Assembly (NCBI GenBank): GCA_958295665.1
Contig: OY282559.1
Span: 260,778,245 to 260,842,244 of the forward strand
Source: Tipula vernalis
Taxonomy: Eukaryota; Arthropoda; Insecta; Diptera; Tipulidae
Length of the DNA: 64,000 bases
Direction: 5' to 3'
Shown: positions 1,438-63,745 of the stretch, piece by piece
How the letters are laid out: every line of letters starts with the position of its first letter
How positions within the stretch are numbered: position 1 is the stretch's first letter
Notes under the pieces: generated by a model
Told to the model about the DNA's origin: nothing
What the model saw: only the letters and a program-made list of their open reading frames with translations
Databases searched by the model: none
Made by a program: the position numbers and the translations under genes

Positions 1438-1439
1438 TA

Positions 1440-18631: not shown

Positions 18632-19117
18632 TGTTACGTTTTTGCCTTGTCAAACAAGGTTCGTATCACTGGATTGTGAATAATACAAACTCAATTCAAT
18701 TTATCACCAACGAATTTATTTATTTCACAAAATTTATTACAACACAGTTTATCAATAAAAATTCACAAAATCACTTTATATAAATTATTCTTAAATTTTA
18801 CTGATCACTTTTACTTTATTTATCGCACTATAACACTTTTTTAAATCACTTTTTATTTCCTTTTAATCTTTATACTATCGCTTACTAATAATCTTACAAG
18901 TTTACACTATCGCGTTCCAAATACGAATAATCCAATTCGATCTTGTTCGCCTTTTTATATACACAAACCAAGCTTCTCGAAAGTTCACGACTTTTCCAGT
19001 TGGAATAGCGTAGAAACATTACGTAACAATTTTTATCATGGAAAATTCCATTTAGTACATTAAACATTGAGCTATTAGTTTTACTTATTCTATTACACAC
19101 TAGGTGTCACCGTCACA
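18632..19117 (-). repeat. 3' LTR of gypsy copy A
   Basis: 486 bp, TGTGACGGTGACACC...CGTAACA on the minus strand. It appears identical to 24259-24744. Confidence 0.93.
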
Positions 19118-19128
19118 CTACCCCTCAC

Positions 19129-22100
19129 CTAAGCCTGTTCGTCCCGAACAGGACCCAAATCACCTCCTCTGTATAGGGCTAGCCTCTCCAAATGCACCAC
19201 CTTTGGTTTACCTCGATGTCCCTTCCGTATCCGATAAACCACGTCGTTCATCCTTGTGATGACAGTATAAGGTCCTTCCCATGCTGGTTGCAGCTTCGGT
19301 GATAATCCCTTTTTCCGTTGCGGGTTGTGAAGCCATACTAATTGCCCTTCCTGGAAGCCCTGGTTATTTGCTCGTATGTCATATCGAGCCTTCATCCGGT
19401 CACTTGACATCCGTATTTTCTCCCGTACAAATTGATGAATCTCATTAAGTTCCTCTTTCATTCGGTCTACGTAATCTTGTCCACATAAAGCCGATGATGG
19501 TACAGCCCCAAACTTTAGATCTCCAGGTAACCGTAGATTATCTCCAAATAAAGTTTTAGCTGGTGTCATTCCGGTTGTGTCATGTATAGCTGATCGATAG
19601 GCCATCAGAAACATCGGTATATGTCGATCCCAGTTGCGTTGGTTTTTCTCAACGACCTTTGCTAGATATTCCTCCAATGTACCATTGAATCTTTCCACCA
19701 TACCGTCAGACTGTGGATGCAAAGGCGTTGTTCTCGTTTTATTTATACCGAGCATCTGGCATATTTCTTGAAACACCACCGACTCAAAATTCCGTCCTTG
19801 ATCGGTATGAATCTCCATCGGCACTCCAAATCTGCTAATCCAATTGTTTACTACGGCATCAGCTATTGTTGTCGTCTCCTGATTGGGAATGGGGTACACC
19901 TCCGGCCATTTGCTGAAATAATCCATGATTACTAGCACATATTTGTTGCCGCTCTCAGTGGTGGGAAATGGGCCCGCTACATCCATTGCAATTCTTTCGA
20001 ATGGTGCTCCAACGTTATATTGCTTCATGGTTCCACGACTTTTGCGTGCGGGTCCCTTCACCGCCGCACATTGGTCACATTTTTGGCACCATTCTATCAC
20101 AGACTGCCTACATCCTGCCCAGTAGAATCGTTGACGTATCTTTGCTAGAGTTTTATTAATTCCAAGGTGGCCCCCACTTGCTCCTCCATGATACTCATTC
20201 AGAATTTCTGCAATCCGGCACTTTGGTATCACCAGCAACAATTGCTTCACTTTGCCATCCGTGCTTTCCCACAATCGTTTTAAACAGCCATTCTCAAGAC
20301 GGAGGCTATCCCATTGAGCCCAATAAGCCTTGACAATGGGAGTTCTGTCCGCGATTTCGCTCCAAGTTGGCCGGTGTTCCTTTTCCTTCCATTCCATTAT
20401 AACTGATAAATCCGTATCATCCAATTGCTCTTTCCTAACCATTTCGTCGGTCCACTCCTCATCAGGCAGCACTTGCGTAAGCCTAACGTCGATGATGCCT
20501 TCCTTTGCTTCAACATGGCCACAATGTTTACATTCTACTGGACACGGCCGTCTTGATAATGCGTCGGCATTTCTGTGTGCACTTCCCTTCCGATGTTCAA
20601 TTTGGAAATCGTAGCTTTGAAGACGTTCGATCCAGCGTGCTACTTGTCCCTCTGGATTCTTAAATTGTAACAGCCACCGTAAAGCGCCGTGATCTGTCCG
20701 TAAATGGAATTTTTGGCCATAAAGATACTTATGGAAATGCTTGACACACTCCACTATAGCCAACAATTCTTTCCGTGTCACGCAGTAATTACGCTCCGGT
20801 TTTGATAATGTTTTGGAGAAGTACGCAATAACTCTTTCTTGACCATTAATTTTCTGTGATAACACACCTCCTATACCGTCATTACTTGCATCGGTGTCTA
20901 AAATAAATTTCACGTTGGGTATAGGGTACGCGAGGATTGGCGCGACACACAACCGTCTCCTTAGTTCCACGAATGCTTCTTCCTGATCATTCTTCCATTC
21001 GAATGCCTTGTTCTTCCTGGTCAACTCGTGTAAACTCTTGGCGATGTTGGCGAATCCTGGCACGAAGCGTCTATAATAGGTGCACAATCCGAGAAAGCTT
21101 CGTAATTCGTGTAAATTTTTAGGTCTTGGCCAGTTCTTAACCGCTGCGATCTTTTCTTCGTCGGTGTGAATTCCATTAATCGTTACGAGATGACCCAAAT
21201 ATTTGACTTCAGTTCTGAACAGCTTACACTTCTTTGGACTTAACTTCAATCCGGCAGCCTGTATCCGATCCAAAACTTCCGCCAAGTTCTTTAGATGCTC
21301 GTCAAAATCCTTCCCCATAACGATGATGTCGTCCAGATATATTAGGCAAGTCTTCCAATGTAATCCCTTTAACACGCGCTCCATTAATCGTTCAAAAGTC
21401 GCAGGGGCATTACATAATCCGAACGGCATAACATTAAATTGCCAAAGTCCGTTACCCACACTGAACGCTGTTTTCTCGCGATCTTCCTCATGGACTTCCA
21501 CCTGCCAATAGCCGCTTTGTAAATCTAACGTCGAAAATATTTGAGCACCCGATAATGTGTCTAACGTGTCATCGATCCTTGGCAGTGGGTAGCTATCTTT
21601 TTTCGTCACAGCATTGAGTTTTCGGTAATCAACGCAAAATCTCATGCTACCGTCCTTCTTCTCGACCAATACTACCGGTGAACTCCATGGGCTGTTAGAT
21701 GGTTCGATTACTCCTGCTGCCTGCATATCTGTTACCATTCGATTGACTTCTTCTTGTTTTGCCAAAGGTAGCCTCCTGGGTGGTTGACGAATCGGCATCT
21801 CCGTTCCCGTATCAATTCGATGCTTTACCATTGAGGTCCTTCCGTTATTATCCGATGTACTGCAGAATATGGACGTGTACTGTTTGAGTAGTTGATGTGC
21901 AGAATCTTTCTGTGCCTCAGTAAGATCTTCGGTCCATTTCTGCATGAGTTGTTCTACCATTTCTTTCTGCTCTTGCATGTCGGCTTTTTCAACCGGACTT
22001 CTCTGTTCACACTTTACTATAGTTGAAACCTCGTTACATTTTCCGATGACTGTCCCTTTCTTGATGGTTTTCGTCTTATCCGAGAGATTTAGAGTCCTAA

Positions 22101-22752
22101 TTGGTACTCTATAGTCGTTGTCTGGTTTAACTAGGGCTTTCCCGATTATAATTTCCTTGGCTCCGTTCTCCTCTTCGTTAGCTTCCACAACCCACAACCT
22201 GGGTGACCCAGAACCTCCCTCCAATTTTCCCCATAGGATCGTCTCCGAATTCGGTGGCAGCTTCTCCCGATGATCAATAATAATTCGCCTGATAGTTGCT
22301 CCGGCACTGCTAGATTGAAGTGGCAACTCGATGTTATCGTAACTTAAAACTCCTCGTCCAACATCCACCACGAAGCCATTTGCCCTCATGAAGTCCATCC
22401 CCATTATGACTTCATCCACAATATCTGCAATCAGCACTTCGTGTTGGAAAAGAGTTCTCCCGATTTTTATTTTCACGATCTTTTTGCCTTTTATTATTGA
22501 ACTATCTCCAGTTGCTGTTTGTAACTTCAATCCATTAGCTGGTTGTACACCTCCATCGATCAGATCTTTACGGACAATCGTGCGATTTGCTCCCGTATCC
22601 AGAGTGATGATGCAATCCGTGCCATCAATGTCGCCTTTGATTGTTAAGCTGTCACCGCCTCTTGCTACTTTCGAAACGCGGATGGAGGTTATGGGGCAAT
22701 CGGTTGTGGGAGTCAGCTTCTGCCCCTTTAAGCTGACTCGTTGTAGTTTAAC
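19129..22752 (-). CDS. pol: Gypsy Pol (protease, RT, RNase H, integrase), -1 frame
   Basis: This frame has no useful AUG at its start and is entered by -1 shift at 22746-22752. Protease DTGA is at 22588-22599. RT follows (GVIEPSNSPWSSPVVLVEKK, FCVDYRKLN, LDLQSGYWQVEV) with catalytic YLDD at 21328-21339. RNase H shows ILDTDASNDGIGGVL, TRKELLAIV and RTDHGALRWLL. Integrase has an HHCC zinc module (HGGASGGHLG, CQKCDQC), then the DDE core (AMDVAGPF, HTDQGRNFES, SDGMVERFNG) and a GPY/F-type end (WEGPYTVI). It ends RDEQA and overlaps nothing downstream. All catalytic residues that I can check are present. It would process Gag-Pol, copy RNA to DNA and integrate it. It is nearly identical to the copy at 55148-58771. 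Confidence 0.93.
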   Translation of the reverse strand, partial: VKLQRVSLKGQKLTPTTDCPITSIRVSKVARGGDSLTIKGDIDGTDCIITLDTGANRTIVRKDLIDGGVQPANGLKLQTATGDSSIIKGKKIVKIKIGRTLFQHEVLIADIVDEVIMGMDFMRANGFVVDVGRGVLSYDNIELPLQSSSAGATIRRIIIDHREKLPPNSETILWGKLEGGSGSPRLWVVEANEEENGAKEIIIGKALVKPDNDYRVPIRTLNLSDKTKTIKKGTVIGKCNEVSTIVKCEQRSPVEKADMQEQKEMVEQLMQKWTEDLTEAQKDSAHQLLKQYTSIFCSTSDNNGRTSMVKHRIDTGTEMPIRQPPRRLPLAKQEEVNRMVTDMQAAGVIEPSNSPWSSPVVLVEKKDGSMRFCVDYRKLNAVTKKDSYPLPRIDDTLDTLSGAQIFSTLDLQSGYWQVEVHEEDREKTAFSVGNGLWQFNVMPFGLCNAPATFERLMERVLKGLHWKTCLIYLDDIIVMGKDFDEHLKNLAEVLDRIQAAGLKLSPKKCKLFRTEVKYLGHLVTINGIHTDEEKIAAVKNWPRPKNLHELRSFLGLCTYYRRFVPGFANIAKSLHELTRKNKAFEWKNDQEEAFVELRRRLCVAPILAYPIPNVKFILDTDASNDGIGGVLSQKINGQERVIAYFSKTLSKPERNYCVTRKELLAIVECVKHFHKYLYGQKFHLRTDHGALRWLLQFKNPEGQVARWIERLQSYDFQIEHRKGSAHRNADALSRRPCPVECKHCGHVEAKEGIIDVRLTQVLPDEEWTDEMVRKEQLDDTDLSVIMEWKEKEHRPTWSEIADRTPIVKAYWAQWDSLRLENGCLKRLWESTDGKVKQLLLVIPKCRIAEILNEYHGGASGGHLGINKTLAKIRQRFYWAGCRQSVIEWCQKCDQCAAVKGPARKSRGTMKQYNVGAPFERIAMDVAGPFPTTESGNKYVLVIMDYFSKWPEVYPIPNQETTTIADAVVNNWISRFGVPMEIHTDQGRNFESVVFQEICQMLGINKTRTTPLHPQSDGMVERFNGTLEEYLAKVVEKNQRNWDRHIPMFLMAYRSAIHDTTGMTPAKTLFGDNLRLPGDLKFGAVPSSALCGQDYVDRMKEELNEIHQFVREKIRMSSDRMKARYDIRANNQGFQEGQLVWLHNPQRKKGLSPKLQPAWEGPYTVITRMNDVVYRIRKGHRGKPKVVHLERLALYRGGDLGPVRDEQA
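22710..22752 (-). promoter_or_regulatory. -1 ribosomal frameshift signal: GTTAAAC plus hairpin
   Basis: On the minus strand, GTTAAAC (22752-22746) sits in the gag phase as G-TTA-AAC. Six bases follow (TACAAC), then a perfect 10-bp stem GAGTCAGCTT / AAGCTGACTC with a 10-base loop. The gag stop TAA lies at the top of the stem. G-UUA-AAC is a known slippery heptamer in viral frameshift sites. The pol frame is open on both sides of it. Confidence 0.8.
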
Positions 22753-24215
22753 GGCTCCGCCGTCATTTGGCCTTCTTGCCTAGCCAACGCCTGCTCCCCG
22801 CTTGGTCGTCGCTGCATAGGAGATGGTGATCTTCCCCTTTTTCTTCTTAATTCCCAGCAGTCGCGAGAGATGTGACCGACCTTATCACATGCCCAACATT
22901 TGATTTTGCCGCTTCCATCTCGGTATCTTGGTGTTGACCGCTCGTTGTTTATGCTTGTATCGATTTCTACTCGGCGTATTTTCATTGACGGTTTGGTGAT
23001 GGCTTGTGCAGTTTCATTTGTTAACGCACAAGCGATGGTTTCCGCAAAGGTTGCTTTAGGTGACAACATCACCGCCCTGCGTGTCTCTGGATCTCGAATG
23101 CCGTCAATGAATGCGTCAATTTTTAGCCTTTCCATATAATCAGCCGACGTACTGGTATGTGCTAGATGTACTAGTCGCTCGATTGCCGATGAAAATTCCT
23201 GAAGTGATTCTCCTCCCTTTTGGTAGCGGCTTTTCAATTCCATTCGATAGATTTCCCGCTTGTGATCACTGCCGTACTTCCGATCCAGCGCCTTCATAAT
23301 TTCGAGATAGCTGCTGCGCTCTTGTTCCGGGATGGTTTGTAAAGCCTCTGCTGCTTCGCCTTTGAGGGCCACTATTAATGCCGCGACACGATGTTCGTCG
23401 TTCCAATGATTTTGATTGGCTGCCGTCTCAAATTGAAATTTGAAAATGACGAAAGATGTTGTTCCGTCGAATGTTGGTGGCTTTATCTTGATTGATTGGA
23501 CGGTTTGTACCACTTGTGTTGTTGTTCCACTTGCCTTGATATCAGTTAGTTCTTTCTCGAGCCGTTGGCATTTTTCTTCAACCTGCTGAACCTCCGTTTT
23601 GACAAGTTGAACTTCCTTTTGCAGTTTTTGGTCAACCTGTTGAATCTCCATTTGCAGCTTCTCTACTTCGCCGTGTATGTTAGCAGATAATTCGAGAAGT
23701 TTCTCGTCCATTCTCTTATGACCATCAGTAATTTGGCTTTTAATTTCTTCTCCTTGTTTCTCCACCCGGTGTTGAAGTTCTTCGTTTGATTGTTTCATAG
23801 TCTCCAACTGCCGCACATTTTGTTGTTCCATTTCATTCTTAATTTCTTGGTTTGACTGCACTGCTTGTTGCGCCATTTGATTTTTAATTTCTCCTAGCTG
23901 TCGTTCGTTTTGTTGTTTCATTAGACTCATCTGTCCCGTCATCTGGTTCATAGCAGCTATTAACTGCGACAAATCGAAACTTCCAGAATGTTCTTGTGTC
24001 TTTTCGACCAACGGTTGTTTATCTTCTGCTTTCTGCTCTACGGTTGCCGCATCCGTTACTTTCTCTCCAAAATCATGATGTTCCGCGTCCAGCCCTTCTT
24101 TCTCCATGGCATCACGTAGTCGCGCTTGTAAAGCTGCTTTACCCCCATCAGTAGCCAAACCCCGTTTCTCAAGTTCGCTCTTTAATTCTGGAACTTTTAA
24201 TTCGCTGAGAATCAT
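22728..24215 (-). CDS. gag: Gypsy Gag with N-terminal SAP domain
   Basis: I start at the ATG of MILSELKVPELK (495 residues). An in-frame GTG lies 21 bases upstream. Residues 1-36 fit a SAP motif (LKVPELKSELEKRGLATDG, then a second helix). About 85-215 is Gln/Glu/Lys-rich heptad coil. About 235-400 is the retrotransposon capsid region (FKFQFETAANQ, YLEIMKALDRKYG, LKSRYQKGGESLQEF). One zinc knuckle follows (CWACDKVGHISRDC), then an Arg-rich tail. Gag would form the particle and bind RNA. The SAP module could hold it on chromatin. It ends in the frameshift stem, giving Gag alone or Gag-Pol. Confidence 0.88.
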   Translation of the reverse strand: MILSELKVPELKSELEKRGLATDGGKAALQARLRDAMEKEGLDAEHHDFGEKVTDAATVEQKAEDKQPLVEKTQEHSGSFDLSQLIAAMNQMTGQMSLMKQQNERQLGEIKNQMAQQAVQSNQEIKNEMEQQNVRQLETMKQSNEELQHRVEKQGEEIKSQITDGHKRMDEKLLELSANIHGEVEKLQMEIQQVDQKLQKEVQLVKTEVQQVEEKCQRLEKELTDIKASGTTTQVVQTVQSIKIKPPTFDGTTSFVIFKFQFETAANQNHWNDEHRVAALIVALKGEAAEALQTIPEQERSSYLEIMKALDRKYGSDHKREIYRMELKSRYQKGGESLQEFSSAIERLVHLAHTSTSADYMERLKIDAFIDGIRDPETRRAVMLSPKATFAETIACALTNETAQAITKPSMKIRRVEIDTSINNERSTPRYRDGSGKIKCWACDKVGHISRDCWELRRKRGRSPSPMQRRPSGEQALARQEGQMTAEPLNYNESA

Positions 24216-24240
24216 TTTCTTTATCTTTTTATTCACAATC

Positions 24241-24255
24241 CCACCGCTGTCACCA
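24241..24255 (-). other. Candidate primer-binding site
   Basis: TGGTGACAGCGGTGG begins three bases after the 5' LTR on the minus strand, the place and TGG start expected for a tRNA 3' end. The primer tRNA was not identified. Confidence 0.55.
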
Positions 24256-24258
24256 AAT

Positions 24259-24744
24259 TGTTACGTTTTTGCCTTGTCAAACAAGGTTCGTATCACTGGA
24301 TTGTGAATAATACAAACTCAATTCAATTTATCACCAACGAATTTATTTATTTCACAAAATTTATTACAACACAGTTTATCAATAAAAATTCACAAAATCA
24401 CTTTATATAAATTATTCTTAAATTTTACTGATCACTTTTACTTTATTTATCGCACTATAACACTTTTTTAAATCACTTTTTATTTCCTTTTAATCTTTAT
24501 ACTATCGCTTACTAATAATCTTACAAGTTTACACTATCGCGTTCCAAATACGAATAATCCAATTCGATCTTGTTCGCCTTTTTATATACACAAACCAAGC
24601 TTCTCGAAAGTTCACGACTTTTCCAGTTGGAATAGCGTAGAAACATTACGTAACAATTTTTATCATGGAAAATTCCATTTAGTACATTAAACATTGAGCT
24701 ATTAGTTTTACTTATTCTATTACACACTAGGTGTCACCGTCACA
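24259..24744 (-). repeat. 5' LTR of gypsy copy A
   Basis: 486 bp. It carries a TATATAAAAAGG promoter box (minus strand, near 24598-24589) and AATAAA-type signals close to its end. It appears identical to 18632-19117. Confidence 0.93.
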
Positions 24745-24759
24745 GTACTTTAAACATAT

Positions 24760-28020: not shown

Positions 28021-28501
28021 GGTGACGGTGACACCTAGTGTGTAATAGAATAAGTAAAACTAATAGCTCAATGTTTACTGTACTAAATGGAATTTTCCAC
28101 GATAAAAATTGTTACGTAATGTTTCTACGCTATTCCAACTGAAAAAGTGAACTTTCGAGAAGCTTGGTTTGTGTATATAAAAAGGCGAACAAGATCGAAT
28201 TGGATTATTCGTATTTGGAACGCGATAGTGTAAACTTGTAAGATTACCAGTAATAATTGGTAAGCGATAGTATAAAGATTAAAAAGGAATTAAAAAGTGA
28301 TTTAAAAAGTGTTTTTGTGCGAAATAAAAAGTGAAAGTGATCAGTAAAATTTGAGAATAATCTATATAAAGTGATTTTGTGAATTTTGATTGATAAACTG
28401 TGTTGTAATAAATTTTGTGAAATAAATAAATTCGTTGGAGATAAATTAAATTGATTTTGTATTATTCACAATCCAGTGATACGAACCTTGAGTGACAAGG
28501 C
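28021..28501 (+). repeat. 5' LTR of gypsy C, 3' end deleted
   Basis: It begins GGTGACGGTGACACC (first T changed to G) and runs into gag at AAGGCAAAATG, missing CGTAACA, the primer-binding site and the leader. Confidence 0.85.
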
Positions 28502-28504
28502 AAA

Positions 28505-30826
28505 ATGATTCTCAACGAACTAAAAGTTCCAGAATTAAAGAGGGAACTTGAGAAACGGGGTTTGGCCACTGATGGCACTAAAGCAGCTTTACAAGCGCGA
28601 CTACGTGAGGCCATGCAAAACGAAGGGCTGGACGCGGAACATCATGATTTTGGAGAGAAAGTAACGGATGCGACAACCGTAGAGCAGAAAGCGGAAGATA
28701 AACAACCGTTGGTCGAAAAGACACAAGAACATTCTGGAAGTTACGATTTGTCGCAGTTAATAGCTGCTATGAACCAGATGACAAGACAGATGAGTCTAAT
28801 GAAACAACAAAACGAACGACAAATGGTGAAAATTGATCAGTCAAACCAAGAAATTAAAAATGAAATGGAACAACAAAATGTGCGACAGTTGGAACAACAA
28901 AATCAGTCTAACCAGGAAATAAAACACGAAATGAAACAACAGTTGGGCGAAATTAAGGAGTCAAACCAAATTATAGAGCGTCAGATGGGGGAAATTGCCG
29001 AAGGTCAAAAGAAAATGGACGAGAAAACTATAGAACTATCTACAAATGTTCATGGTGAAATAGAGAAATTGCAGACGGATTTACAATCAGAAATTCAACA
29101 TGTTAGAACTGAATTTAAGACGGAGATTCAACAGGTTGAAGAAAAGTTTCAACGTCTAGAGAAAGAGCTGATTGATGTCAGAGCAAGTGAAACAACGATG
29201 CAAGTGGTACAAACCGTCCAATCAATCAAGTTAAAACCATCAAACTTCGACGGTACAACATCTTTCGGCATTTTCAAATTTCAATTTGAAACGGCAGCCA
29301 ATCAAAATCGTTGGAATGATGAACATCTTGTCGCAGCGTTAATAGTGGCCCTTAAAGGTGAAGCTGCAGAGGCCTTACAGACAATTCCGGAAAAAGATCG
29401 CAACAGTTATCTCGAAATTATGAAGGCGCTGGATAGGAAGTACGGCAGTGATAACAAGCGGGAAATCTATCGAATGGAATTGAAAAGCCGCTACCAAAAG
29501 GGAGGAGAATCACTTCAGGAATTTTCATCGGCAATCGAGCGATTAGTACATCTAGCACATACCAGTACATCGGCCGATTATACGGAAAGGCTAAAAATTG
29601 ACGCATTCATTGACGGCATTCGAGATCCAGAAACACGCAGGGCGGTGATGTTGTCACCTAAAGCGACGTTCGCGGAAACCGTTGCGTTTGCGTTAACGAT
29701 CGAGGCTGTGCAGAACTTCACCAGACCGTCATTATTTAGGCACCAAATGAATTTAGACGCTAAAGGGTACATAGAGCGGGCAGTACCAAAATTTAGAAGC
29801 GGCAGGCTTAGGTGTTGGAAATGTGACAAGTTGGGTCACATTTCAATGGACTGTCGGAAAGTAATACATGGAGAGAGAAGATCGCCACCTTTTATGCGGG
29901 TAAAAACGGAACGGTCGCAACAAAGGTCTAGAAGCAGCGAGCGAAGATGTTGGGTATGTAACAGGATTGGTCACATCTCGCGAGATTGTTTGGAAACAAG
30001 AGGAAAGCGGCACGGATCACCAACTTCTGTGGAAAGAACACTAAGAAGAGAGCAGGGATCGGATGTACGGATGGCCACAGTCGGTAAAGTGGAAAGGTTA
30101 GAAGTCAGTTTGAAGGAACCGAAGCTGGCGTCTTCGTCTGGTTGCCCCATAACATTCATCCCTGTTACGAATGAAGCACGAGGCGGAAGCAGCGTCACAG
30201 TTATGGGCGGTGTTGATGGAAGGAGGTGTATTATTACGCTGGATACCGGAGCAACCCACACAATTGTTCGGAAAGATTTGATCGCAGGAGCAGTGCAGCT
30301 GGTTGATGGGTTAAAATTAAGAATGGCAAATGGGGAGAGTGCAATGATTAAAGGGAAAAAGATCGTGAGCATAAGAATCGGCGAAACTCTTTTCCCACAC
30401 GAAGTTCTGGTCGCCGACATTGTGGATGAGGTTATTTTGGGAACGGACTTCATGAGGATGAATGGCTTTGTGTTAGATTTTGGACAAGGAATATTGATTA
30501 GCGATAACATCGAGCTGAAACTTAAATTTAACGGATTGGATGCGACAGTAAGGCGAGAAACAATCAGTCATTGCGAGGAGCTGCCATCGAAATCTGAAAC
30601 AATTGTTGAGGAAACGAATGAACCCCAGGTTAAACAGATATTGGATAAAAAGGGCCGAGTTGTGCGAAGAGGAGTGCTAGTTTCGGGCGACTGGATGAGA
30701 ACTCGATGTGCCATACGGGCAAATGGCCAGGGATTACACGAGGGGCAATTGGTGTGGCTTCACAACTCGCAACAAAAGAAGGGGGATTTATCGGCGAAAG
30801 TGCAGCCTATATGGACGGCACCCTAA
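28505..30826 (+). CDS. Gag-protease fusion of non-autonomous gypsy C
   Basis: 773 residues in one frame. SAP domain (MILNELKVPELK, residues 1-36). Long Gln-rich coil (about 90-225). Capsid region (about 245-410). Two zinc knuckles (CWKCDKLGHISMDC, CWVCNRIGHISRDC). Protease with LDTGATHTIVRKDL near residue 580. After about residue 730 the frame joins a fragment of the integrase C-terminal tail (GQLVWLHNSQQKK) and stops at a TAA where copy D has TAC. RT, RNase H and the integrase core are absent. No frameshift is needed, so every molecule would carry protease. It may package its own RNA with helper Pol. Whether it is expressed is unknown, because the primer-binding site is gone. Confidence 0.8.
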   Translation: MILNELKVPELKRELEKRGLATDGTKAALQARLREAMQNEGLDAEHHDFGEKVTDATTVEQKAEDKQPLVEKTQEHSGSYDLSQLIAAMNQMTRQMSLMKQQNERQMVKIDQSNQEIKNEMEQQNVRQLEQQNQSNQEIKHEMKQQLGEIKESNQIIERQMGEIAEGQKKMDEKTIELSTNVHGEIEKLQTDLQSEIQHVRTEFKTEIQQVEEKFQRLEKELIDVRASETTMQVVQTVQSIKLKPSNFDGTTSFGIFKFQFETAANQNRWNDEHLVAALIVALKGEAAEALQTIPEKDRNSYLEIMKALDRKYGSDNKREIYRMELKSRYQKGGESLQEFSSAIERLVHLAHTSTSADYTERLKIDAFIDGIRDPETRRAVMLSPKATFAETVAFALTIEAVQNFTRPSLFRHQMNLDAKGYIERAVPKFRSGRLRCWKCDKLGHISMDCRKVIHGERRSPPFMRVKTERSQQRSRSSERRCWVCNRIGHISRDCLETRGKRHGSPTSVERTLRREQGSDVRMATVGKVERLEVSLKEPKLASSSGCPITFIPVTNEARGGSSVTVMGGVDGRRCIITLDTGATHTIVRKDLIAGAVQLVDGLKLRMANGESAMIKGKKIVSIRIGETLFPHEVLVADIVDEVILGTDFMRMNGFVLDFGQGILISDNIELKLKFNGLDATVRRETISHCEELPSKSETIVEETNEPQVKQILDKKGRVVRRGVLVSGDWMRTRCAIRANGQGLHEGQLVWLHNSQQKKGDLSAKVQPIWTAP

Positions 30827-32482: not shown

Positions 32483-34876
32483 CTAAGCCTGTTCGTCCCG
32501 AACAGGACCGAAATTACCTCCTCGGTAGAGGGCCAGCCTCTCTAAATGTACCGCCATTGGTTTACCTCCTTGTCCTTTTCTTGTCCTGTAGGGTGCAGTC
32601 CATATAGGCTGCACTTTCGCCGATAAATCCCCCTTCTTTTGTTGCGAGTTGTGAAGCCACACCAATTGCCCCTCGTGTAATCCCTGGCCATTTACCCGTA
32701 TGGCACATCGAGTTCTCATCCAGTCGCCCGACACTCGCACTCTACCTCGCACAACTCGGCCCTTCTTATCCAATGTCTGCTTAACCTGGTGTTCTTTGGT
32801 TTCCTCAACAATTGTTTCAGATTTCGATGGCAGCTCCTCGCAATGACTGATTGTTACTCGCCTTACTGTCACATCCGTACCGTTAAATTTAAGATTCAGC
32901 TCGATGTTATCGCTGCTCAATATTCCTCGTCCAAAATCCAACACAAAGCCATTCATCCTCATGAAGTCCGTTCCCAAAATAACCTCATCCACAATGTCTG
33001 CGACCAGAACTTCGTGTGGGAAAAGCGTTTCGCCGATCCTTATGCTCACGATCTTTTTCCCTTTAATCATTGCACTCTCCCCATTTGCCATTCTTAATTT
33101 TAACCCATCAACTAGCTGCACTGCTCCTGCGATCAAATCTTTCCGAACAATTGTGTGGGTTGCTCCGGTATCCAGCGTAATAATACACCTCCCCCCATCA
33201 ACACCGCCCATAACTGTGACGCTGCTTCCGCCTCGTGCTTCACTCGTAACAGGGATGGATGTTATGGGGCAACCAGACGGCGAAGCCAGCTTCGGTTCCT
33301 TCAAACTGACTTCTATCCTTTCCACTTTAGCGACTGTTGCCATCCGTTCATCCGATCCCTGCTCTCCTCTTAGTGCTCTTTTCATAGAAGTTGGTGATCC
33401 GTGCCGCTTTCCCCTTGCTTCCAAACAATCTCGCGAGATGTGGCCAATCCTGTTACATACCCAACATCTTCGCTCGCTGCTTCTAGACCTTTGTTCCGAC
33501 CGTTCCGTTTTTACCCGCATAAAAGGTGGCGATCTTCTCTCTCCATGTATTACTTTCCGACAGTCCATTGAGATGTGACCCAACTTGTCACATTTCCAAC
33601 ACCTAAGCCTGCCTCTTCCGACTGTCGGTACCATTCGCTCCATGCTGCCGTTCTTGTCTGAGTTCATTTGGCGCCTAACTAATGACGGTCTGGTGAAGTT
33701 CTGCACGGCCTCGATCGTTAACGCAAACGCAACGGTTTCCGCGAACGTCGCTTTAGGTGACAACATCACCGCCCTGCGTGTCTCTGGATCTCGAATGCCG
33801 TCAATGAATGCGTCAATTTTAAGCCTTTCCATATAATCGGCCGACGTACTGGTATGTGCTAGATGTACTAATCGCTCGATTGCCGATGAAAATTCCTGAA
33901 GTGATTCTCCTCCCTTTTGGTAGCGGCTTTTCAATTCCATTCGATAGATTTCCCGCTTGTGATCACTGCCGTACTTCCTATCCAGCGCCTTCATAATTTC
34001 GAGATAACTGTTGCGATCTTTTTCCGGAATTGTTTGTAAGGCCTCCGCTGCTTCACCTTTAAGGCCCACTATTAACGCTGCGACAAGATGTTCATCATTC
34101 CAACGGTTTTGATTGGCTGCCGTTTCAAATTGAAATTTGAAAATGCCGAAAGATGTTGTACCGTCGAATGTTGGTGGCTTTAATTTAATCGATTGAACGG
34201 TTTGAACCACTTGCGTCGTTGTTCCACTTGCCTTGACATCAGTTAGATCTTTCTCGAGGCGTTGAAATTTTTCCACAACTTGTTGAACCTTCATTTCTAA
34301 TTTTCCTTCAACCTGTTGAATCTCCGTTTGCAATTTCTCTTCAACATGTTGAACCTTCGTTTATAATTTTTCGTCAACCTTTTGAATCTCCATTTGCAGC
34401 TTCTCCACTTCGCCGTGTATGTTAGTAGATAATTCTTGAATTTTCTCGTCCATATTCTTTTGACCTTCGGCGATTTCCCCCATCTGACGCTCTATAATTT
34501 AGTTTGACTGTCTAATTTCGCCCATCTGTTCTTTCATTTCGTATTTAATTTCTCCTAGCTGTCGTTCGTTTTGTTGTTTCATTAGACTCATCTGTCCCGT
34601 CATCTGGTTCATAGCAGCTACTAACTGCGACAAATCGAAACTTCCAGAATGTTCTTGTGTCTTTTCGACCAACGGTTGTTTATCTTCTGCTTTCTGCTCT
34701 ACGGTTGCCGCATCCGTTACTTTCTCTCCGAAATCATGATGTTCCTCGTCCAGCCCTTCGTTCTGCATGGCCTCACGTAGTCGCGCTTGTAAAGCTGCTT
34801 TAGTACCATCAGTAGCCAAACCCCGTTTCTCTAGTTCTCTTTTTAATTCTGGAACTTTTAATTCGTTGAGAATCAT
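32483..34876 (-). pseudogene. Gag-protease of gypsy D, two stops
   Basis: MILNELKVPELK starts at 34876 with an intact SAP region. Stops occur at about 34501 (CAA to TAA relative to copy C) and at 34361-34363. The rest (34333-32483) is open: capsid, two zinc knuckles, protease (LDTGATHTIV), then a jump to the integrase tail that ends RDEQA, as in Pol of copy A. The second stop is shared with copy B. Confidence 0.85.
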
Positions 34877-37145: not shown

Positions 37146-37174
37146 ATATTATGAATATTTTGAATATTTAATAC

Positions 37175-37690
37175 TGTGACGGTGACACCTAGTGTGTAAT
37201 AGAATAAGTAAAACTAATAGCTCAATGTTTACTGTACTAAATGCAATTTTCCATGATAAAAATTGTTACGTAATGTTTCTACGCTATTCCAACTGGAAAA
37301 GTCGTGAACTTTCGAGAAGCTTGGTTTGTGTATATAAAAAGGCGAACAAGATCGAATTGGATTATTAGTATTTGGAACGCGATAGAGTAAACTTGTAAGA
37401 TTATGAGTATAATTTGGAACGCGATAGAGTAATATTTGGAAAGCGATAGTATAAAGATTAAAAAGGAATTAAAAAGTGATTTAAAAAGTGTTTTTGTGGA
37501 AATAAAAATTATAAGTGATCAGTAAAATTTGAGAATAATTTATATAAAGTGATTTTGTGAATTTTGATTGATAAACTGTGTTGTAATAAATTTTGTGAAA
37601 TAAATAAATTCGTTGGAGATAAATTAAATTGATTTTGTATTATTCACAATCCAGTGATCGAACCTTGATTGACAAGGCAAAAACGTAACA
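37175..37690 (+). repeat. 5' LTR of gypsy E
   Basis: 516 bp. Promoter-like TATATAAAAA at 37331-37340. It is followed by TGGTGACAGCGGTGG at 37694-37708. Confidence 0.92.
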
Positions 37691-37733
37691 ATTTGGTGAC
37701 AGCGGTGGGATTGTGAATAAAAAGAAAAAGAAA

Positions 37734-40348: not shown

Positions 40349-40359
40349 GTGAGGGGTAG

Positions 40360-40875: not shown

Positions 40876-40935
40876 ATACAAATTATGCTGTCAAAACAAA
40901 ACTTGATAAATAATTTCACTAACTATACTCTTAAG

Positions 40936-55147: not shown

Positions 55148-58100
55148 CTAAGCCTGTTCGTCCCGAACAGAACCCAAATCACCTCCTCTGTATAGGGCCA
55201 GCCTCTCCAAATGCACCACCTTTGGTTTACCTCGATGTCCCTTCCGTATCCGATAAACCACGTCGTTCATCCTTGTGATGACAGTATAAGGTCCTTCCCA
55301 TGCTGGTTGCAGCTTCGGTGATAATCCCTTTTTCCGTTGCGGGTTGTGAAGCCATACTAATTGCCCTTCCTGGAAGCCCTGGTTATTTGCTCGTATGTCA
55401 TATCGAGCCTTCATCCGGTCACTTGACATCCGTATTTTCTCCCGTACAAATTGATGAATCTCATTAAGTTCCTCTTTCATTCGGTCTACGTAATCTTGTC
55501 CACATAAAGCCGATGATGGTACAGCCCCAAACTTTAGATCTCCAGGTAACCGTAGATTATCTCCAAATAACGTTTTAGCTGGTGTCATTCCGGTTGTGTC
55601 ATGTATAGCTGATCGATAGGCCATCAGAAACATCGGTATATGTCGATCCCAGTTGCGTTGGTTTTTCTCAACGACCTTTGCTAGATATTCCTCCAATGTA
55701 CCATTGAATCTTTCCACCATACCGTCAGACTGTGGATGCAAAGGCGTTGTTCTCGTTTTATTTATACCGAGCATCTGGCATATTTCTTGAAACACCACCG
55801 ATTCGAAATTCCGTCCTTGATCGGTATGAATCTCCATCGGCACTCCAAATCTGCTAATCCAATTGTTTACCACGGCATCAGCTATTGTTGTCGTCTCCTG
55901 ATTGGGAATGGGGTACACCTCCGGCCATTTGCTGAAATAATCCATGATTACTAGCACATATTTGTTGCCGCTCTCAGTGGTGGGAAATGGGCCCGCTACA
56001 TCCATTGCAATTCTTTCGAATGGTGCTCCAACGTTATATTGCTTCATGGTTCCACGACTTTTGCGTGCGGGTCCCTTCACCGCCGCACATTGGTCACATT
56101 TTTGGCACCATTCTATCACAGACTGCCTACATCCTGCCCAGTAGAATCGTTGACGTATCTTTGCTAGAGTTTTATTAATTCCAAGGTGGCCCCCACTTGC
56201 TCCTCCATGATACTCATTCAGAATTTCTGCAATCCGGCACTTTGGTATCACCAGCAACAATTGCTTCACTTTGCCATCCTTGCTTTCCCACAATCGTTTT
56301 AAACAGCCATTCTCAAGACGGAGGCTATCCCATTGAGCCCAATAAGCCTTGACAATGGGAGTTTTGTCCGCGATCTCGCTCCAAGTTGGCCGGTGTTCCT
56401 TTTCCTTCCATTCCATTATAACTGATAAATCCGTATCATCCAATTGCTCTTTCCTGATCATTTCGTCGGTCCACTCCTCATCAGGCAGCACTTGCGTAAG
56501 CCTAACGTCGATGATGCCTTCCTTTGCTTCAACATGGCCACAATGTTTACATTCTACTGGACACGGCCGTCTTGATAATGCGTCGGCATTTCTGTGTGCA
56601 CTTCCCTTCCGATGTTCAATTTGGAAATCGTAGCTTTGAAGACGTTCGATCCAGCGTGCTACTTGTCCCTCTGGATTCTTAAATTGTAACAGCCACCGTA
56701 AAGCGCCGTGATCTGTCCGTAAATGGAATTTTTGGCCATAAAGATACTTATGGAAATGCTTGACACACTCCACTATAGCCAACAATTCTTTCCGTGTCAC
56801 GCAGTAATTACGCTCCGGTTTTGATAATGTTTTGGAGAAGTACGCAATAACTCTTTCTTGACCATTAATTTCCTGTGATAACACACCTCCTATACCGTCA
56901 TTACTTGCATCGGTGTCCAAAATAAATTTCACGTTGGGTATAGGGTACGCGAGGATTGGCGCAACACACAACCGTCTCCTTAGTTCCACGAATGCTTCTT
57001 CCTGGTCATTCTTCCATTCGAATGCCTTGTTCTTCCTGGTCAACTCGTGTAAACTTTTGGCGATGTTGGCGAATCCTGGCACGAAGCGTCTATAATAGGT
57101 GCACAATCCGAGAAAGCTTCGTAATTCGTGTAAATTTTTAGGTCTTGGCCAGTTCTTTACCGCTGCGATCTTTTCTTCGTCGGTGTGAATTCCATTAATC
57201 GTTACGAGATGACCCAAATATTTGACTTCAGTTCTGAACAGCTTACACTTCTTTGGACTTAACTTCAATCCGGCAGCCTGTATCCGATCCAAAACTTCCG
57301 CCAAGTTCTTTAGATGCTCGTCAAAATCCTTCCCCATAACGATGATGTCGTCCAGATATATTAGGCAAGTCTTCCAATGTAATCCCTTTAACACGCGTTC
57401 CATTAATCGTTCAAAAGTCGCAGGGGCATTACATAATCCGAACGGCATAACATTAAATTGCCAAAGTCCGTTACCCACACTGAACGCTGTTTTCTCGCGA
57501 TCTTCCTCATGGACTTCCACCTGCCAATAGCCGCTTTGTAGATCTAATGTCGAAAATATTTGAGCACCCGATAATGTGTCTAACGTGTCATCGATCCTTG
57601 GCAGTGGGTAGCTATCTTTTTTCGTCACAGCATTGAGTTTTCGGTAATCAACGCAAAATCTCATGCTACCGTCCTTCTTCTCGACCAATACTACCGGTGA
57701 GCTCCATGAGCTATTAGATGGTTCAATTACTCCTGCTGCCTGCATATCTGTTACCATTCGATTGACTTCTTCTTGTTTTGCTAAAGGTAGCCTCCTGGGT
57801 GGTTGACGAATTGGCATCTCTGCTCCCGTATCAATGCGGTGCTTTACCATTGAGGTCCTTCCGTTATTATCCGATGTACTGCAGAATATGGACGTGTACC
57901 GTTTGAGTAGATGATGTGCAGAATTTTTCTGTGCCTCGGTAAGATCTTCGGTCCATTTCTGCATAAGTTGTTCTACCATTTCTTTCTGCCATTGCATGTC
58001 GGCTTTTTCAACCGGACTTCTCTGTTCACACTTTACTATAGTTGAAACCTCGTTACATTTGCCGATGACTGTCCCTTTCTTGATGGTTTTCGTCTTATCC

Positions 58101-58771
58101 GAGAGATTTAGAGTCCTAATTGGCACTCTATAGTCGTTGTCTGGTTTAACTAGGGATTTTCCGATTATAATTTCCTTGGCTCCGTTCTCCTCTTCGTTAG
58201 CTTCCACAACCCACAACCTGGGTGACCCAGAACCTCCCTCCAATTTTCCCCATAGGATCGTCTCCGAATTCGGTGGCAGCTTCTCCCGATGATCAATAAT
58301 AATTCGCCTGATAGTTGCTCCGGCACTGCTAGATTGAAGTGGCAACTCGATGTTATCGTAACTTAAAACTCCTCGTCCAACATCCACCACGAAGCCATTT
58401 GCCCTCATGAAGTCCATCCCCATTATGACTTCATCCACAATATCTGCAATCAGCACTTCGTGTTGGAAAAGAGTTCTCCCGATTTTTATTTTCACGATCT
58501 TTTTGCCTTTTATTATTGAACTATCTCCAGTTGCTGTTTGTAACTTCAATCCATTAGCTGGTTGTACACCTCCATCGATCAGATCTTTACGGACAATCGT
58601 GCGATTTGCTCCCGTATCCAGAGTGATGATGCAATCCTTGCCATCAATGTCGCCTTTGATTGTTAAGCTGTCACCGCCTCTTGCTACTTTCGAAACGCGG
58701 ATGGAGGTTATGGGGCAATCGGTTGTGGGAGTCAGCTTCTGCCCCTTTAAGCTGACCCGTTGTAGTTTAAC
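55148..58771 (-). CDS. pol: Gypsy Pol of copy G, -1 frame
   Basis: Entered by frameshift at 58765-58771. Protease DTGA at 58607-58618, RT YLDD at 57347-57358, then RNase H (ILDTDASNDGIGGVL), the integrase HHCC module, DDE core and GPY/F end, finishing RDEQA. It differs from copy A by a small number of substitutions (for example EQK/WQK and DRT/DKT) and has no stops. The N-terminal spacer between protease and RT is about 180 residues. Both copies probably give functional enzyme. Confidence 0.93.
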   Translation of the reverse strand, partial: VKLQRVSLKGQKLTPTTDCPITSIRVSKVARGGDSLTIKGDIDGKDCIITLDTGANRTIVRKDLIDGGVQPANGLKLQTATGDSSIIKGKKIVKIKIGRTLFQHEVLIADIVDEVIMGMDFMRANGFVVDVGRGVLSYDNIELPLQSSSAGATIRRIIIDHREKLPPNSETILWGKLEGGSGSPRLWVVEANEEENGAKEIIIGKSLVKPDNDYRVPIRTLNLSDKTKTIKKGTVIGKCNEVSTIVKCEQRSPVEKADMQWQKEMVEQLMQKWTEDLTEAQKNSAHHLLKRYTSIFCSTSDNNGRTSMVKHRIDTGAEMPIRQPPRRLPLAKQEEVNRMVTDMQAAGVIEPSNSSWSSPVVLVEKKDGSMRFCVDYRKLNAVTKKDSYPLPRIDDTLDTLSGAQIFSTLDLQSGYWQVEVHEEDREKTAFSVGNGLWQFNVMPFGLCNAPATFERLMERVLKGLHWKTCLIYLDDIIVMGKDFDEHLKNLAEVLDRIQAAGLKLSPKKCKLFRTEVKYLGHLVTINGIHTDEEKIAAVKNWPRPKNLHELRSFLGLCTYYRRFVPGFANIAKSLHELTRKNKAFEWKNDQEEAFVELRRRLCVAPILAYPIPNVKFILDTDASNDGIGGVLSQEINGQERVIAYFSKTLSKPERNYCVTRKELLAIVECVKHFHKYLYGQKFHLRTDHGALRWLLQFKNPEGQVARWIERLQSYDFQIEHRKGSAHRNADALSRRPCPVECKHCGHVEAKEGIIDVRLTQVLPDEEWTDEMIRKEQLDDTDLSVIMEWKEKEHRPTWSEIADKTPIVKAYWAQWDSLRLENGCLKRLWESKDGKVKQLLLVIPKCRIAEILNEYHGGASGGHLGINKTLAKIRQRFYWAGCRQSVIEWCQKCDQCAAVKGPARKSRGTMKQYNVGAPFERIAMDVAGPFPTTESGNKYVLVIMDYFSKWPEVYPIPNQETTTIADAVVNNWISRFGVPMEIHTDQGRNFESVVFQEICQMLGINKTRTTPLHPQSDGMVERFNGTLEEYLAKVVEKNQRNWDRHIPMFLMAYRSAIHDTTGMTPAKTLFGDNLRLPGDLKFGAVPSSALCGQDYVDRMKEELNEIHQFVREKIRMSSDRMKARYDIRANNQGFQEGQLVWLHNPQRKKGLSPKLQPAWEGPYTVITRMNDVVYRIRKGHRGKPKVVHLERLALYRGGDLGSVRDEQA
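58729..58771 (-). promoter_or_regulatory. -1 frameshift signal of copy G
   Basis: GTTAAAC, six-base spacer, then stem GGGTCAGCTT / AAGCTGACTC. The one substitution relative to copy A turns an A-U pair into a G-U wobble, so pairing is kept. Confidence 0.78.
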
Positions 58772-60297
58772 GGCTCCGCCGTCATTTGGCCTTCTTGCCT
58801 AGCCAACGCCTGCTCCCCGCTTGGTCGTCGCTGCATAGGAGATGGTGATCTTCCCCTTTTTCTTCTTAATTCCCAGCAGTCGCGAGAGATGTGACCGACC
58901 TTATCACATGCCCAACATCTGATTTTGCCGCTTCCATCTCGGTATCTTGGTGTTGCCCGCTCGTTGTTTATGCTTGTATCGATTTCTACTCGGCGTATTT
59001 TCATTGACGGTTTGGTGATGGCTTGTGCAGTTTCATTTGTTAACGCACAAGCGATGGTTTCCGCAAAGGTTGCTTTAGGTGACAACATCACCGCCCTGCG
59101 TGTCTCTGGATCTCGAATGCCGTCAATGAATGCGTCAATTTTTAGTCTTTCCATATAATCGGCCGATGTACTGGTATGTGCTAGATGTACTAGCCGCTCG
59201 ATTGCCGATGAAAATTCCTGAAGTGATTCTCCTCCCTTTTGGTAGCGGCTTTTCAATTCCATTCGATAAATTTCTCGCTTGTGATCACTGCCGTACTTCC
59301 TATCCAGCGCCTTCATAATTTCGAGATAACTGTTGCGATCTTTTTCCGGAATTGTTTGTAAGGCCTCCGCTGCTTCACCTTTAAGGGCCACTATTAACGC
59401 TGCGACAAGATGTTCATCATTCCAACGGTTTTGATTAGCTGCCGTTTCAAATTGAAATTTGAAAATGCCGAAAGATGTCGTACCGTCGAAGTTTGGTGGT
59501 TTTAACTTAACTGATTGAATGGTTTGTACCACTTGTGTTGTTGTTCCACTTGCCTTGATATCAGTTAGCTCTTTCCCGAGACGTTGAACCTCTGCTTGTA
59601 ATTTTTCTTCGACCTGCTGAACCTTCGTTTCAAATTTTTCGTCAACCTTTTGAATCTCCATTTGCAGCTTCTCCACTTCGCCGTGAATGTTAGTAGATAA
59701 TTCGAGAAGTTTCTCGTCCATTCTCTTTTGACCATCTATAATTTGGTCTTTAATTTCCTCTCCTTGTTGTTTCATTTCTTGGTTTGACTGATTTATAGTC
59801 TCCATTTGTTGTTTCATTTCTTGGTTAGACTGATTTTGTTGTTCCAACTGTCGTTTTATTTCTTCGTTTGACTGGTTTATAGTCTCCAACTGCCGCACAT
59901 TTTGTTGTTCCATTTCATTCTTAATTTCTTGGTTTGACTGCACTGCTTGTTGCGCCATTTGTTTTTTAATTTCTCCTAGCTGTCGTTCGTTTTGTTGTTT
60001 CATTAGACTCATCTGTCCCGTCATCTGGTTCATAGCAGCTATTAACTGCGACAAATCGAAACTTCCAGAATGTTCTTGTGTCTTTTCGACCAACGGTTGT
60101 TTATCTTCTGCTTTCTGCTCTACGGTTGCCGCATCCGTTACTTTCTCTCCAAAATCATGATGTTCCGCGTCCAGCCCTTCTTTCTCCATGGCATCACGTA
60201 GTCGCGCTTGTAAAGCTGCTTTACCACCATCAGTAGCCAAACCCCGTTTCTCAAGTTCGCTCTTTAATTCTGGAACTTTTAATTCGCTGAGAATCAT
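58747..60297 (-). CDS. gag: Gypsy Gag of copy G
   Basis: About 516 residues from the ATG of MILSELKVPELK. It has the same plan as copy A: SAP domain, coil, capsid, one zinc knuckle (CWACDKVGHISRDC), basic tail. The coil is longer, with additional QSNQEMKQQ / QSNEEIKRQ-type repeats, and its capsid segment (NQNRWNDEHLVAAL, PEKDRNSYLEIM) matches the deleted copies C-E rather than copy A. This indicates exchange between lineages. Confidence 0.88.
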   Translation of the reverse strand: MILSELKVPELKSELEKRGLATDGGKAALQARLRDAMEKEGLDAEHHDFGEKVTDAATVEQKAEDKQPLVEKTQEHSGSFDLSQLIAAMNQMTGQMSLMKQQNERQLGEIKKQMAQQAVQSNQEIKNEMEQQNVRQLETINQSNEEIKRQLEQQNQSNQEMKQQMETINQSNQEMKQQGEEIKDQIIDGQKRMDEKLLELSTNIHGEVEKLQMEIQKVDEKFETKVQQVEEKLQAEVQRLGKELTDIKASGTTTQVVQTIQSVKLKPPNFDGTTSFGIFKFQFETAANQNRWNDEHLVAALIVALKGEAAEALQTIPEKDRNSYLEIMKALDRKYGSDHKREIYRMELKSRYQKGGESLQEFSSAIERLVHLAHTSTSADYMERLKIDAFIDGIRDPETRRAVMLSPKATFAETIACALTNETAQAITKPSMKIRRVEIDTSINNERATPRYRDGSGKIRCWACDKVGHISRDCWELRRKRGRSPSPMQRRPSGEQALARQEGQMTAEPLNYNGSA

Positions 60298-60340
60298 TTT
60301 CTTTATCTTTTTATTCACAATCCCACCGCTGTCACCAATT

Positions 60341-60836
60341 TGTTACGTTTTTGCCTTGTCAATCAAGGTTCGTATCACTGGATTGTGAATAATACAAAAT
60401 CAATTTAATTTATCTCCAACGAATTTATTAATTTCACAAAATTTATTACAACACAGTTTATCAATCAAAATTCACAAAATCACTTTATATAAATTATTCT
60501 CAAATTTTACTAATCACTATTACTTTTTATTTCGCACAAAAACACTTTTTAAATCACTTATTAATTCCTTTTTAATCTTTATACTATCGCTTTCCAAATA
60601 TTACTTATAATCTTACAAGTTTACTCTATCGCGTTCCAAATACTAATAATCCAATTCGATCTTGTTCGCCTTTTTATATACAAAAACCAAGCTTCTCGAA
60701 AGTTCACGACTTTTCCAGTTGGAATAGCGTAGAAACATTACGTAACAATTTTTATCATGGAAAATTCCATTTAGTACAGTAAACATTGAGCTATTAGTTT
60801 TACTTATTCTATTACACACTAGGTGTCACCGTCACA
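60341..60836 (-). repeat. 5' LTR of gypsy G
   Basis: 496 bp. Minus-strand TATATAAAAA box at 60671-60680. Confidence 0.93.
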
Positions 60837-60948
60837 ATATATATTGTGACGGTGACACCTAGTGTGTAATAGAATAAGTAAAACTAATAGCTCAATGTTT
60901 ACTGTACTAAATGGAATTTTCCATGATAAAAATTGTTACGTAATGTTT

Positions 60949-61250: not shown

Positions 61251-61293
61251 TTTCTTGATCTTTTTATTCACAATCCCACCGCTGTCACCAAAT

Positions 61294-61787: not shown

Positions 61788-61795
61788 ATATATAT

Positions 61796-62289
61796 TGTGA
61801 CGGTGACACCTAGTGTGTAATAGAATAAGTAAAACTAATAGCTCAATGTTTACTGTACTAAATGGAATTTTCCATGATAAAAATTGTTACGTAATGTTTC
61901 TACGCTATTCCAACTGGAAAAGTCGTGAACTTTCGAGAAGCTTGGTTTGTGTATATAAAAAGGCGAACAAGATCGAATTGGATTATTAGTATTTGGAACG
62001 CGATAGTGTAAAGGTGTAAGAATAAGTAATATTTGGAAAGCGATAGTATAAAGATTAAAAAGGAATTAAAAAGTGATTTAAAAAGTGTTTTTGTGCGAAA
62101 TAAAAAGTAAAAGTGATTAGTAAAATTTGAGAATAATTTATATAAAGTGATTTTGTGAATTTTGATTGATAAACTGTGTTGTAATAAATTTTGTGAAATA
62201 AATAAATTCGTTGGTGATAAATTGAATTGAGTTTGTATTATTCACAATCCAGTGATACGAACCTTGATTGACAAGGCAAAAACGTAACA
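61796..62289 (+). repeat. 5' LTR of gypsy I
   Basis: 494 bp. TATATAAAAA at 61952-61961. TGGTGACAGCGGTGG at 62293-62307 is the primer-binding site. Confidence 0.92.
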
Positions 62290-62332
62290 ATTTGGTGACA
62301 GCGGTGGGATTGTGAATAAAAAGATCAAGAAA

Positions 62333-63727: not shown

Positions 63728-63745
63728 AGGGGCAGAAGCTGACTC
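63703..63745 (+). promoter_or_regulatory. -1 frameshift signal of copy I
   Basis: GTTAAAC at 63703-63709, spacer TACAAC, perfect stem 63716-63725 / 63736-63745 with a 10-base loop. The gag stop is at 63725-63727. Confidence 0.8.

Follow-up and report, generated by a model that had tools for sequence, protein, structure and literature searches.

The gag-pol junction of a Ty3/gypsy-type long terminal repeat (LTR) retrotransposon in Tipula vernalis very probably carries a signal for programmed -1 ribosomal frameshifting, which is, judged from the sequence, the best explanation for the arrangement found there. The element was analyzed in a window of 64,000 nt (assembly GCA_958295665.1, contig OY282559.1, positions 260,778,245 to 260,842,244 of the forward strand), this being the whole stretch of DNA under study, and its copies in the window are referred to as A, B and C. 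The signal is clean and present in high copy number, and many of its copies are near-identical. In addition, the window contains a sister lineage, termed the fused lineage here, in which Gag and protease are encoded in one frame.

Layout of the gag-pol junction

On the minus strand (22752-22710), copy A reads GCC GTTAAAC TACAAC GAGTCAGCTT AAAGGGGCAG AAGCTGACTC in 5′ to 3′ direction. Using the sequence, the frames of the open reading frames (ORFs) and the predicted fold, this stretch was divided into the slippery heptamer G-TTA-AAC (22746..22752), the 6-nt spacer TACAAC (22740..22745), which differs among copies, the 5′ arm of stem 1 (22730..22739), a 10-nt loop (22720..22729) and the 3′ arm of stem 1 (22710..22719). 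According to the ORF coordinates, the heptamer is read as G-TTA-AAC in the gag phase and as GTT-AAA in the pol phase; the Gag protein ends with ...PLNYNESA. Folding with ViennaRNA resulted in a 10-bp stem with a 10-nt loop and a free energy of -14.0 kcal/mol for copies A and C and of -13.1 kcal/mol for copy B. The cassette of copy B (58729..58771, minus strand) carries an A to G change at stem position 2, and that of copy C (63703..63745, plus strand) is followed by a pol frame which leaves the window at its end.

A first-pass annotation, made from the letters of the window alone, had proposed the phased heptamer, the 6-nt spacer, the perfect 10-bp stem with its 10-nt loop and a pol frame in -1, and all of these were confirmed by the sequence, the ORFs and the fold. 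The same holds for the two further cassettes and for the stem change that turns an A-U into a G-U pair and keeps the pairing, which was found in copy B. Its placement of the gag stop codon inside the stem applies in part: the TAA (22728..22730, minus strand) straddles the border of stem and loop, overlapping only the last base of the 5′ arm and extending with two bases into the loop.

A 6-nt spacer followed by a stable 10-bp stem fits the layout of -1 frameshift cassettes, in which heptamer and structure are usually about 5-9 nt apart. The heptamer GTTAAAC is not strictly identical at the X positions of the X-XXY-YYZ pattern; GUUAAAC is listed as the slippery heptamer of equine arteritis virus in Table 1 of PMC3835772, in agreement with its earlier description as a known slippery sequence.

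The gag and pol ORFs of copy A overlap by 52 nt, pol being in -1 relative to gag. In copies A and B the overlap holds the heptamer, the spacer and the 5′ arm of the stem, while copy C has the same cassette but is truncated where the window ends. Throughout the overlap, the third frame is closed. The pol frame of copies A and B has its first AUG at codon index 125, downstream of the protease DTG motif at index 60 (zero-based, counted in copy A from 22779). Translation initiated internally at an AUG would therefore miss the active site and could not yield an active protease. Just past the heptamer, the -1 frame encodes the peptide VSLKGQKL, and its counterpart VSLKEPKL is found in the gag frame of the fused lineage. 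The recurrence of this VSLKxxKL motif in a lineage with one frame indicates that the stretch is real coding sequence, translated as part of pol.

In the proposed mechanism, ribosomes translating gag would arrive at G-UUA-AAC and be slowed there by the downstream RNA structure, so that in a fraction of passages the tRNAs in the P- and A-site would slip back by one base onto GUU-AAA. Reading would then continue with CUA-CAA-CGA... into protease, reverse transcriptase, RNase H and integrase. Ribosomes that do not slip would terminate 15 nt past the heptamer, where the gag UAA begins. The expected outcome is much Gag and little Gag-Pol. The slippage itself, its rate and the hairpin as its stimulator, perhaps extended to an H-type pseudoknot, are predictions of this model.

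Structure of the autonomous element

The gag ORF of copy A (22728..24260, minus strand; all ORF borders are given from stop to stop) encodes a SAP domain, a PNMA/gag-like region that scored below the Pfam cut-off and a CCHC knuckle. The pol ORF (19129..22779, minus strand) encodes protease, reverse transcriptase, RNase H and integrase in this order, as detected with Pfam on three 400-aa pieces of pol. Both are flanked by LTRs of 490 nt (5′ LTR 24259..24748, 3′ LTR 18632..19121, minus strand) that are 99.8% identical. Since both the domain order and the flanking LTRs are present, the element is a Ty3/gypsy-type LTR retrotransposon. Copy B has gag at 58747..60342, pol in -1 at 55148..58798 (both minus strand) and LTRs of 500 nt that are 99.8% identical; gag of copy C is located at 62288..63727 on the plus strand. 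In a search with a piece of pol, the best-scoring named relative came from a fly, followed further down by other flies, a beetle, many spiders and some non-arthropods.

A SAP domain, which to our knowledge is unusual for a Gag, opens the Gag proteins encoded at 24260-22728 (minus strand, E-value 3.5e-11), 37689-39230 (plus strand, 9.4e-11) and 28496-30826 (plus strand, 4.7e-12). It is also marked in five of 12 Gag relatives that were found.

Chance controls and abundance in the genome

The heptamer by itself is not enriched in the window (18 occurrences of GTTAAAC vs. a mean of 15.46 in shuffled sequences). A stem of at least 10 bp, G-U pairs allowed, that starts 4-10 nt past the heptamer was obtained in 23 of 10,000 dinucleotide shuffles of the downstream 113 nt. 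Such stems occur at 478 of 18,250 positions that were tested at 7-nt intervals along both strands of the window, so they are commoner in the window than in the shuffles and the stem by itself is weak evidence. The telling point is the fit of the stem with a phased heptamer inside the 52-nt overlap. A chance origin was accordingly rejected for phase, overlap and stem taken together, but not for the heptamer alone, whose count does not exclude it.

The autonomous stem was further compared with synonymous variants that encode the same pol peptide. A 10-bp stem was present in 124 of 5000 variants and an equally low minimum free energy (MFE) in 17 of 5000; keeping the gag-coding 5′ arm constant raised these numbers to 229 and 92 of 5000, respectively.

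A 23-mer comprising heptamer, spacer and 5′ arm had 932 matches in the genome with up to three mismatches, compared to two for the reversed pattern. When a 301-nt query was used, all 40 scored places (out of 1459 candidates, the copy in the window included) were 100% identical to it, which suggests that the autonomous family has probably been active recently.

Conservation of the junction among genomic copies

For the comparison of copies across the genome, junction loci were picked by gag similarity and not by the junction itself. A first set contained 90 loci from 89 distinct places (L142 repeats L084); the junction was found in every one of the 90, with 51 being identical over 79 nt. In 25 of the 40 loci of a second set, the heptamer is in frame and its distance to the gag stop is the usual one. 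Seven others belong to the fused lineage (L157, L158, L160, L167, L169, L175, L187); in four the stop comes earlier (L153, L159, L170, L180), in two the heptamer is altered (L162, L172), and L184 is interrupted. The remaining locus, L168 (G000:C4:11270920-11271300), is a member of the autonomous family in which a small upstream deletion bypasses the shift and places gag and pol in one frame of 1685 aa. With the fused and the interrupted loci set aside, the heptamer is intact in 30 of 32 autonomous-type junctions of the second set. A further gag match is located in a frame of 1354 aa (G000:C1:39327467).

Altogether, 129 distinct loci entered a count of variable sites. Ten in which no junction was detected even when 14 mismatches were allowed (the seven fused loci, L159, L165 and L184) were left out, as was L168 due to its indel, which resulted in 118 junctions. 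Sites that vary in at least three of these copies were found at 0 of 7 positions of the heptamer, 0 of 20 of stem 1, 3 of 6 of the spacer, 9 of 75 upstream, 5 of 90 downstream, 1 of 11 of the last loop and 1 of 12 of a possible stem 2 described below. When all variant alleles are counted, stem 1 is depleted, with 5 alleles at 20 sites vs. 104 at 165 flanking sites (Poisson p 0.014). The alignment of family members that the first-pass annotation had suggested was carried out on part of the copies, and the only stem-1 variant common to at least two of the 118 is an A to G change which retains pairing as G-U. Compensatory changes, also suggested there, amount to one pair that separates the autonomous from the fused lineage.

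Relatives were compared at the protein level. Eleven of the 12 Gag relatives were read; these are predicted proteins, many of them on short contigs. P0002 (57% identical) ends with ...SLNINESA vs. ...PLNYNESA here, LNxNESA being kept while the preceding residues differ. P0004, P0006 and P0005 end with ...LNLN, ...PLN and ...PKN, which, as far as proteins tell, would fit a TTA-AAC or AAA-AAC immediately upstream of the stop codon. The gag alignment A1 matched no distant relatives in other collections, the cassette pattern had no matches in viral_contigs or genome_contigs, and one weak match of P0002 in viral_contigs was not used. As DNA matches from other species are lacking, covariation rests on two lineages of one genome.

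Several observations weigh against a frameshift signal. Seven of the 11 relatives (P0003, P0007, P0008, P0009, P0010, P0011, P0013) lack an end motif of this kind, and P0009 has Gag and protease in one frame. The two changed heptamers mentioned above belong here as well. Heptamer and stem 1 do not differ significantly from flanks and spacer (Fisher p 0.14 for sites varying in at least three copies, 0.09 for at least two), and variant alleles are not depleted in the heptamer (3 at 7 sites, p 0.36). A sharp dip of diversity at the junction was not seen in 30 longer loci, where diversity is low over most of the region from -370 to +150. Finally, L182, one of the 118, breaks two stem pairs, one of them by a C to A change in the 3′ arm, and L049, which is outside the 118 and was found by the cassette search, carries the same 3′-arm change. 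Stem pairs broken without compensation, which the first-pass annotation had regarded as speaking against its proposal, thus exist in single copies, and no such variant is shared among the 118. The broken stems may reflect decay after insertion.

Set against these points, the frames, the phase of the heptamer, the spacer, the stem, the lack of an early AUG in pol and the lack of heptamer or stem variants in three or more of the 118 copies support the reading as a -1 frameshift cassette.

A fused Gag-protease sister lineage

Two members of the fused lineage are located in the window. D28 (28496..30826, plus strand) is a single ORF of 776 aa with SAP domain, Gag, CCHC knuckles and protease, and its hairpin has one mismatch. 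E32 (32483..34360, minus strand) likewise encodes Gag and protease in one frame and contains a perfect 11-bp hairpin. Pfam searches of D28 and E32 detected no reverse transcriptase, RNase H or integrase core; the C-terminal ends of both resemble an integrase tail by eye. The LTR identity of 99.8% for E32 and 92.9% for D28 indicates that the lineage moved recently, presumably mobilized in trans.

Autonomous and fused lineage are 71% identical over 589 nt. The fused lineage has neither the heptamer nor the gag stop, the homologous site being GGTAAAG or GCTAAAG (GGTATAG in W26). The hairpin GAAGTCAGTTT/AAGCTGGCTTC, with perfect 11 bp and the same 10-nt loop, is present in seven of 10 fused sequences, and L175, D28 and W26 show altered pairs or different folds; an eleventh fused stretch (W51) lacks the site and is outside the 10. 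Compared to the autonomous stem, the main fused stem has gained one pair, shows a compensatory replacement of G-C by A-U and has two pairs turned into wobbles, and no pair is broken. The compensatory change represents a single event, present in four of 15 alignment rows, i.e., in all four fused rows. In a control with 500 shuffles, none reached the observed number of paired cells, the number of cells with changes on both sides or the covariation score, whereas 396 reached the number of pairs changed on both sides and 494 that of pair types.

Of 5000 synonymous variants encoding the fused peptide, 33 formed a stem of at least 11 bp and 8 had an MFE as low. It thus seems that the hairpin is maintained more strongly than coding alone would demand, in a lineage for which a frameshift is unnecessary. 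With 782 genome matches to the fused hairpin at up to three mismatches vs. 0 for the reversed pattern, this non-autonomous lineage is abundant. It provides a natural comparison in which a related peptide is encoded, the slip site is gone and the hairpin is mostly kept. This makes it possible to examine whether a stimulator of frameshifting also acts in a different step of retrotransposition, and it bears on how non-autonomous elements cope with a fixed ratio of Gag to protease.

Possible pseudoknot and alternative explanations

The loop of copy A contains GGGGCA (22721..22726, minus strand), which could pair as the 5′ arm of a stem 2 with TGCCCC (22693..22698, minus strand), 11 nt past stem 1. 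The candidate H-type geometry comprises a stem 1 of 10 bp, a loop 1 of 3 nt, a stem 2 of 6 bp (7 with a G-U pair) and a loop 3 of 11 nt, and the duplex of GGGGCAG and UUGCCCC has a calculated energy of -11.8 kcal/mol. Whether the hairpin is extended to an H-type pseudoknot in this way appears about evenly balanced. The simple hairpin assumed by the first-pass annotation as the stimulator was found as a 10-bp stem, and it may be stem 1 of this larger structure. That the stimulator is a plain 10-bp hairpin and the match of GGGGCA and TGCCCC a coincidence, TGCCCC simply coding for a conserved CPIT peptide, has slightly less than an even chance. It agrees with the retention of TGCCCC, coding for CPIT, in the fused lineage, where stem 2 is a bulged 6-bp match of no significance (1762 of 5000 synonymous variants are as strong). 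Variant alleles are not depleted in stem 2 either (9 at 12 sites vs. 104 at 165 flanking sites), a stem-2 pair is broken in five single copies (L063, L069, L088 and L154 in the 5′ arm, L108 in the 3′ arm), and at least 7 pairs, G-U allowed, arise in 504 of 10,000 shuffles of the downstream 30 nt. A coincidence is harder to reconcile with the finding that only 64 of 5000 synonymous variants pair loop and downstream sequence equally strongly, that the 3′-arm variants common to at least two copies are all C to T and retain G-U pairs, and that the geometry is close to that of the equine arteritis virus signal except for the long last loop there.

For the cassette as a whole, expression of pol by internal initiation, termination-reinitiation or splicing, with the heptamer being incidental, is very improbable. 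Such routes are known from other retroelements, but the first pol AUG lies beyond the protease motif, and the phase of the heptamer, its intactness in 30 of 32 junctions, the spacer and the stem suit -1 slippage. That the stem is a mere by-product of coding in two overlapping frames is also unlikely: the VSLKxxKL peptide is constrained in the fused lineage too and the autonomous stem length is reached by some synonymous variants, with and without the fixed 5′ arm, but equally low folding energies are rarer in both lineages and the outer pairs changed while pairing was kept. A non-frameshift role of the hairpin, e.g., in RNA packaging, dimerization or ribosome pausing, exerted also in the autonomous elements, is a less remote alternative, although we consider it rather doubtful. 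It would account for a perfect stem in seven of 10 sequences that lack the heptamer and read Gag and protease in frame, for stem changes between the lineages that break no pair in the main form, for the rarity of such stems and energies among the fused variants and for the many genome matches, and slid versions of alignment A2 never reach the observed pairing. Conversely, the single compensatory pair was inherited by all fused rows, two of the shuffle measures are commonly reached, L175, D28 and W26 fold otherwise or with mismatches, much of the hairpin core is constrained by the VSLKxxKL peptide, and an ancestor that used frameshifting could have left the hairpin behind as a relic. More speculative still, and in our estimate improbable, is a hairpin with a double duty, i.e., a frameshift stimulator in the autonomous elements that is at the same time a cis signal for packaging or another step which the parasitic Gag-protease lineage had to keep. 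The programmed -1 frameshift signal remains the preferred reading of the junction.

Other features of the window

A perfect inverted repeat of 847 bp without spacer was found at 60945-62638, near the head-to-head copies B and C; it could be a nested insertion or an assembly artefact. At 37172-40877 (plus strand) there is a deletion derivative with gag followed by an integrase-only ORF in -1 and LTRs that are 99.8% identical over 521 nt. Furthermore, a Ty1/copia-type remnant with rve and RVT_2 domains is located at 1413-2651 (plus strand). Two C2H2 zinc-finger ORFs at 16001-16933 and 49789-50823 (both plus strand) are possible host genes, and a search with a zinc-finger ORF matched animals broadly.

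Comparison with known systems

A literature search in titles and abstract openings, in which subscription papers were thinly covered, yielded nothing on the signal of this family, on a SAP domain in such a Gag or on the fused lineage. The Mag lineage of mosquito Ty3/gypsy elements (PMC3286476) comprises, as in the present case, elements of about 4-10 kb, in which members with one and with two ORFs occur together; in the main text of that paper on Mag the words "frameshift" and "slippery" are absent.

Equine arteritis virus is unrelated, and the likeness would be one of mechanism and not of membership. According to Table 1 of PMC3835772, its signal consists of the heptamer GUUAAAC, a spacer of 5 nt (6 here), a stem 1 of 10 bp as in the present case, a stem 2 of 7 bp (6 here, 7 with G-U), a loop 1 of 2 nt (3 here), a loop 2 of 58 nt and a loop 3 of 0 nt. 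The main difference is the long loop, 58 nt there vs. 11 nt here.

PEG10 and the PNMA-family genes use frameshifting and are derived from Ty3/gypsy elements; as described in PMC5009743, the PEG10 frameshift is stimulated by a pseudoknot, and Ma3 has an H-type pseudoknot. These are domesticated host genes, whereas the present case is a high-copy element with open pol ORFs.

The closest setting is that of the animal LTR retrotransposons. In a 2003 survey, as described in PMC5009743, pol was in -1 in 28 of 51 animal elements, many of them with classical heptamers. The present element agrees with these in the direction of the predicted shift, the position at the gag-pol border and the classical type of heptamer, and is set apart, as far as that description goes, in that GUUAAAC is followed by a long, perfect stem, possibly as part of a pseudoknot. 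Frameshifting in -1 at the gag-pol border is widespread among animal LTR elements, and the present cassette very probably adds a member to this group.

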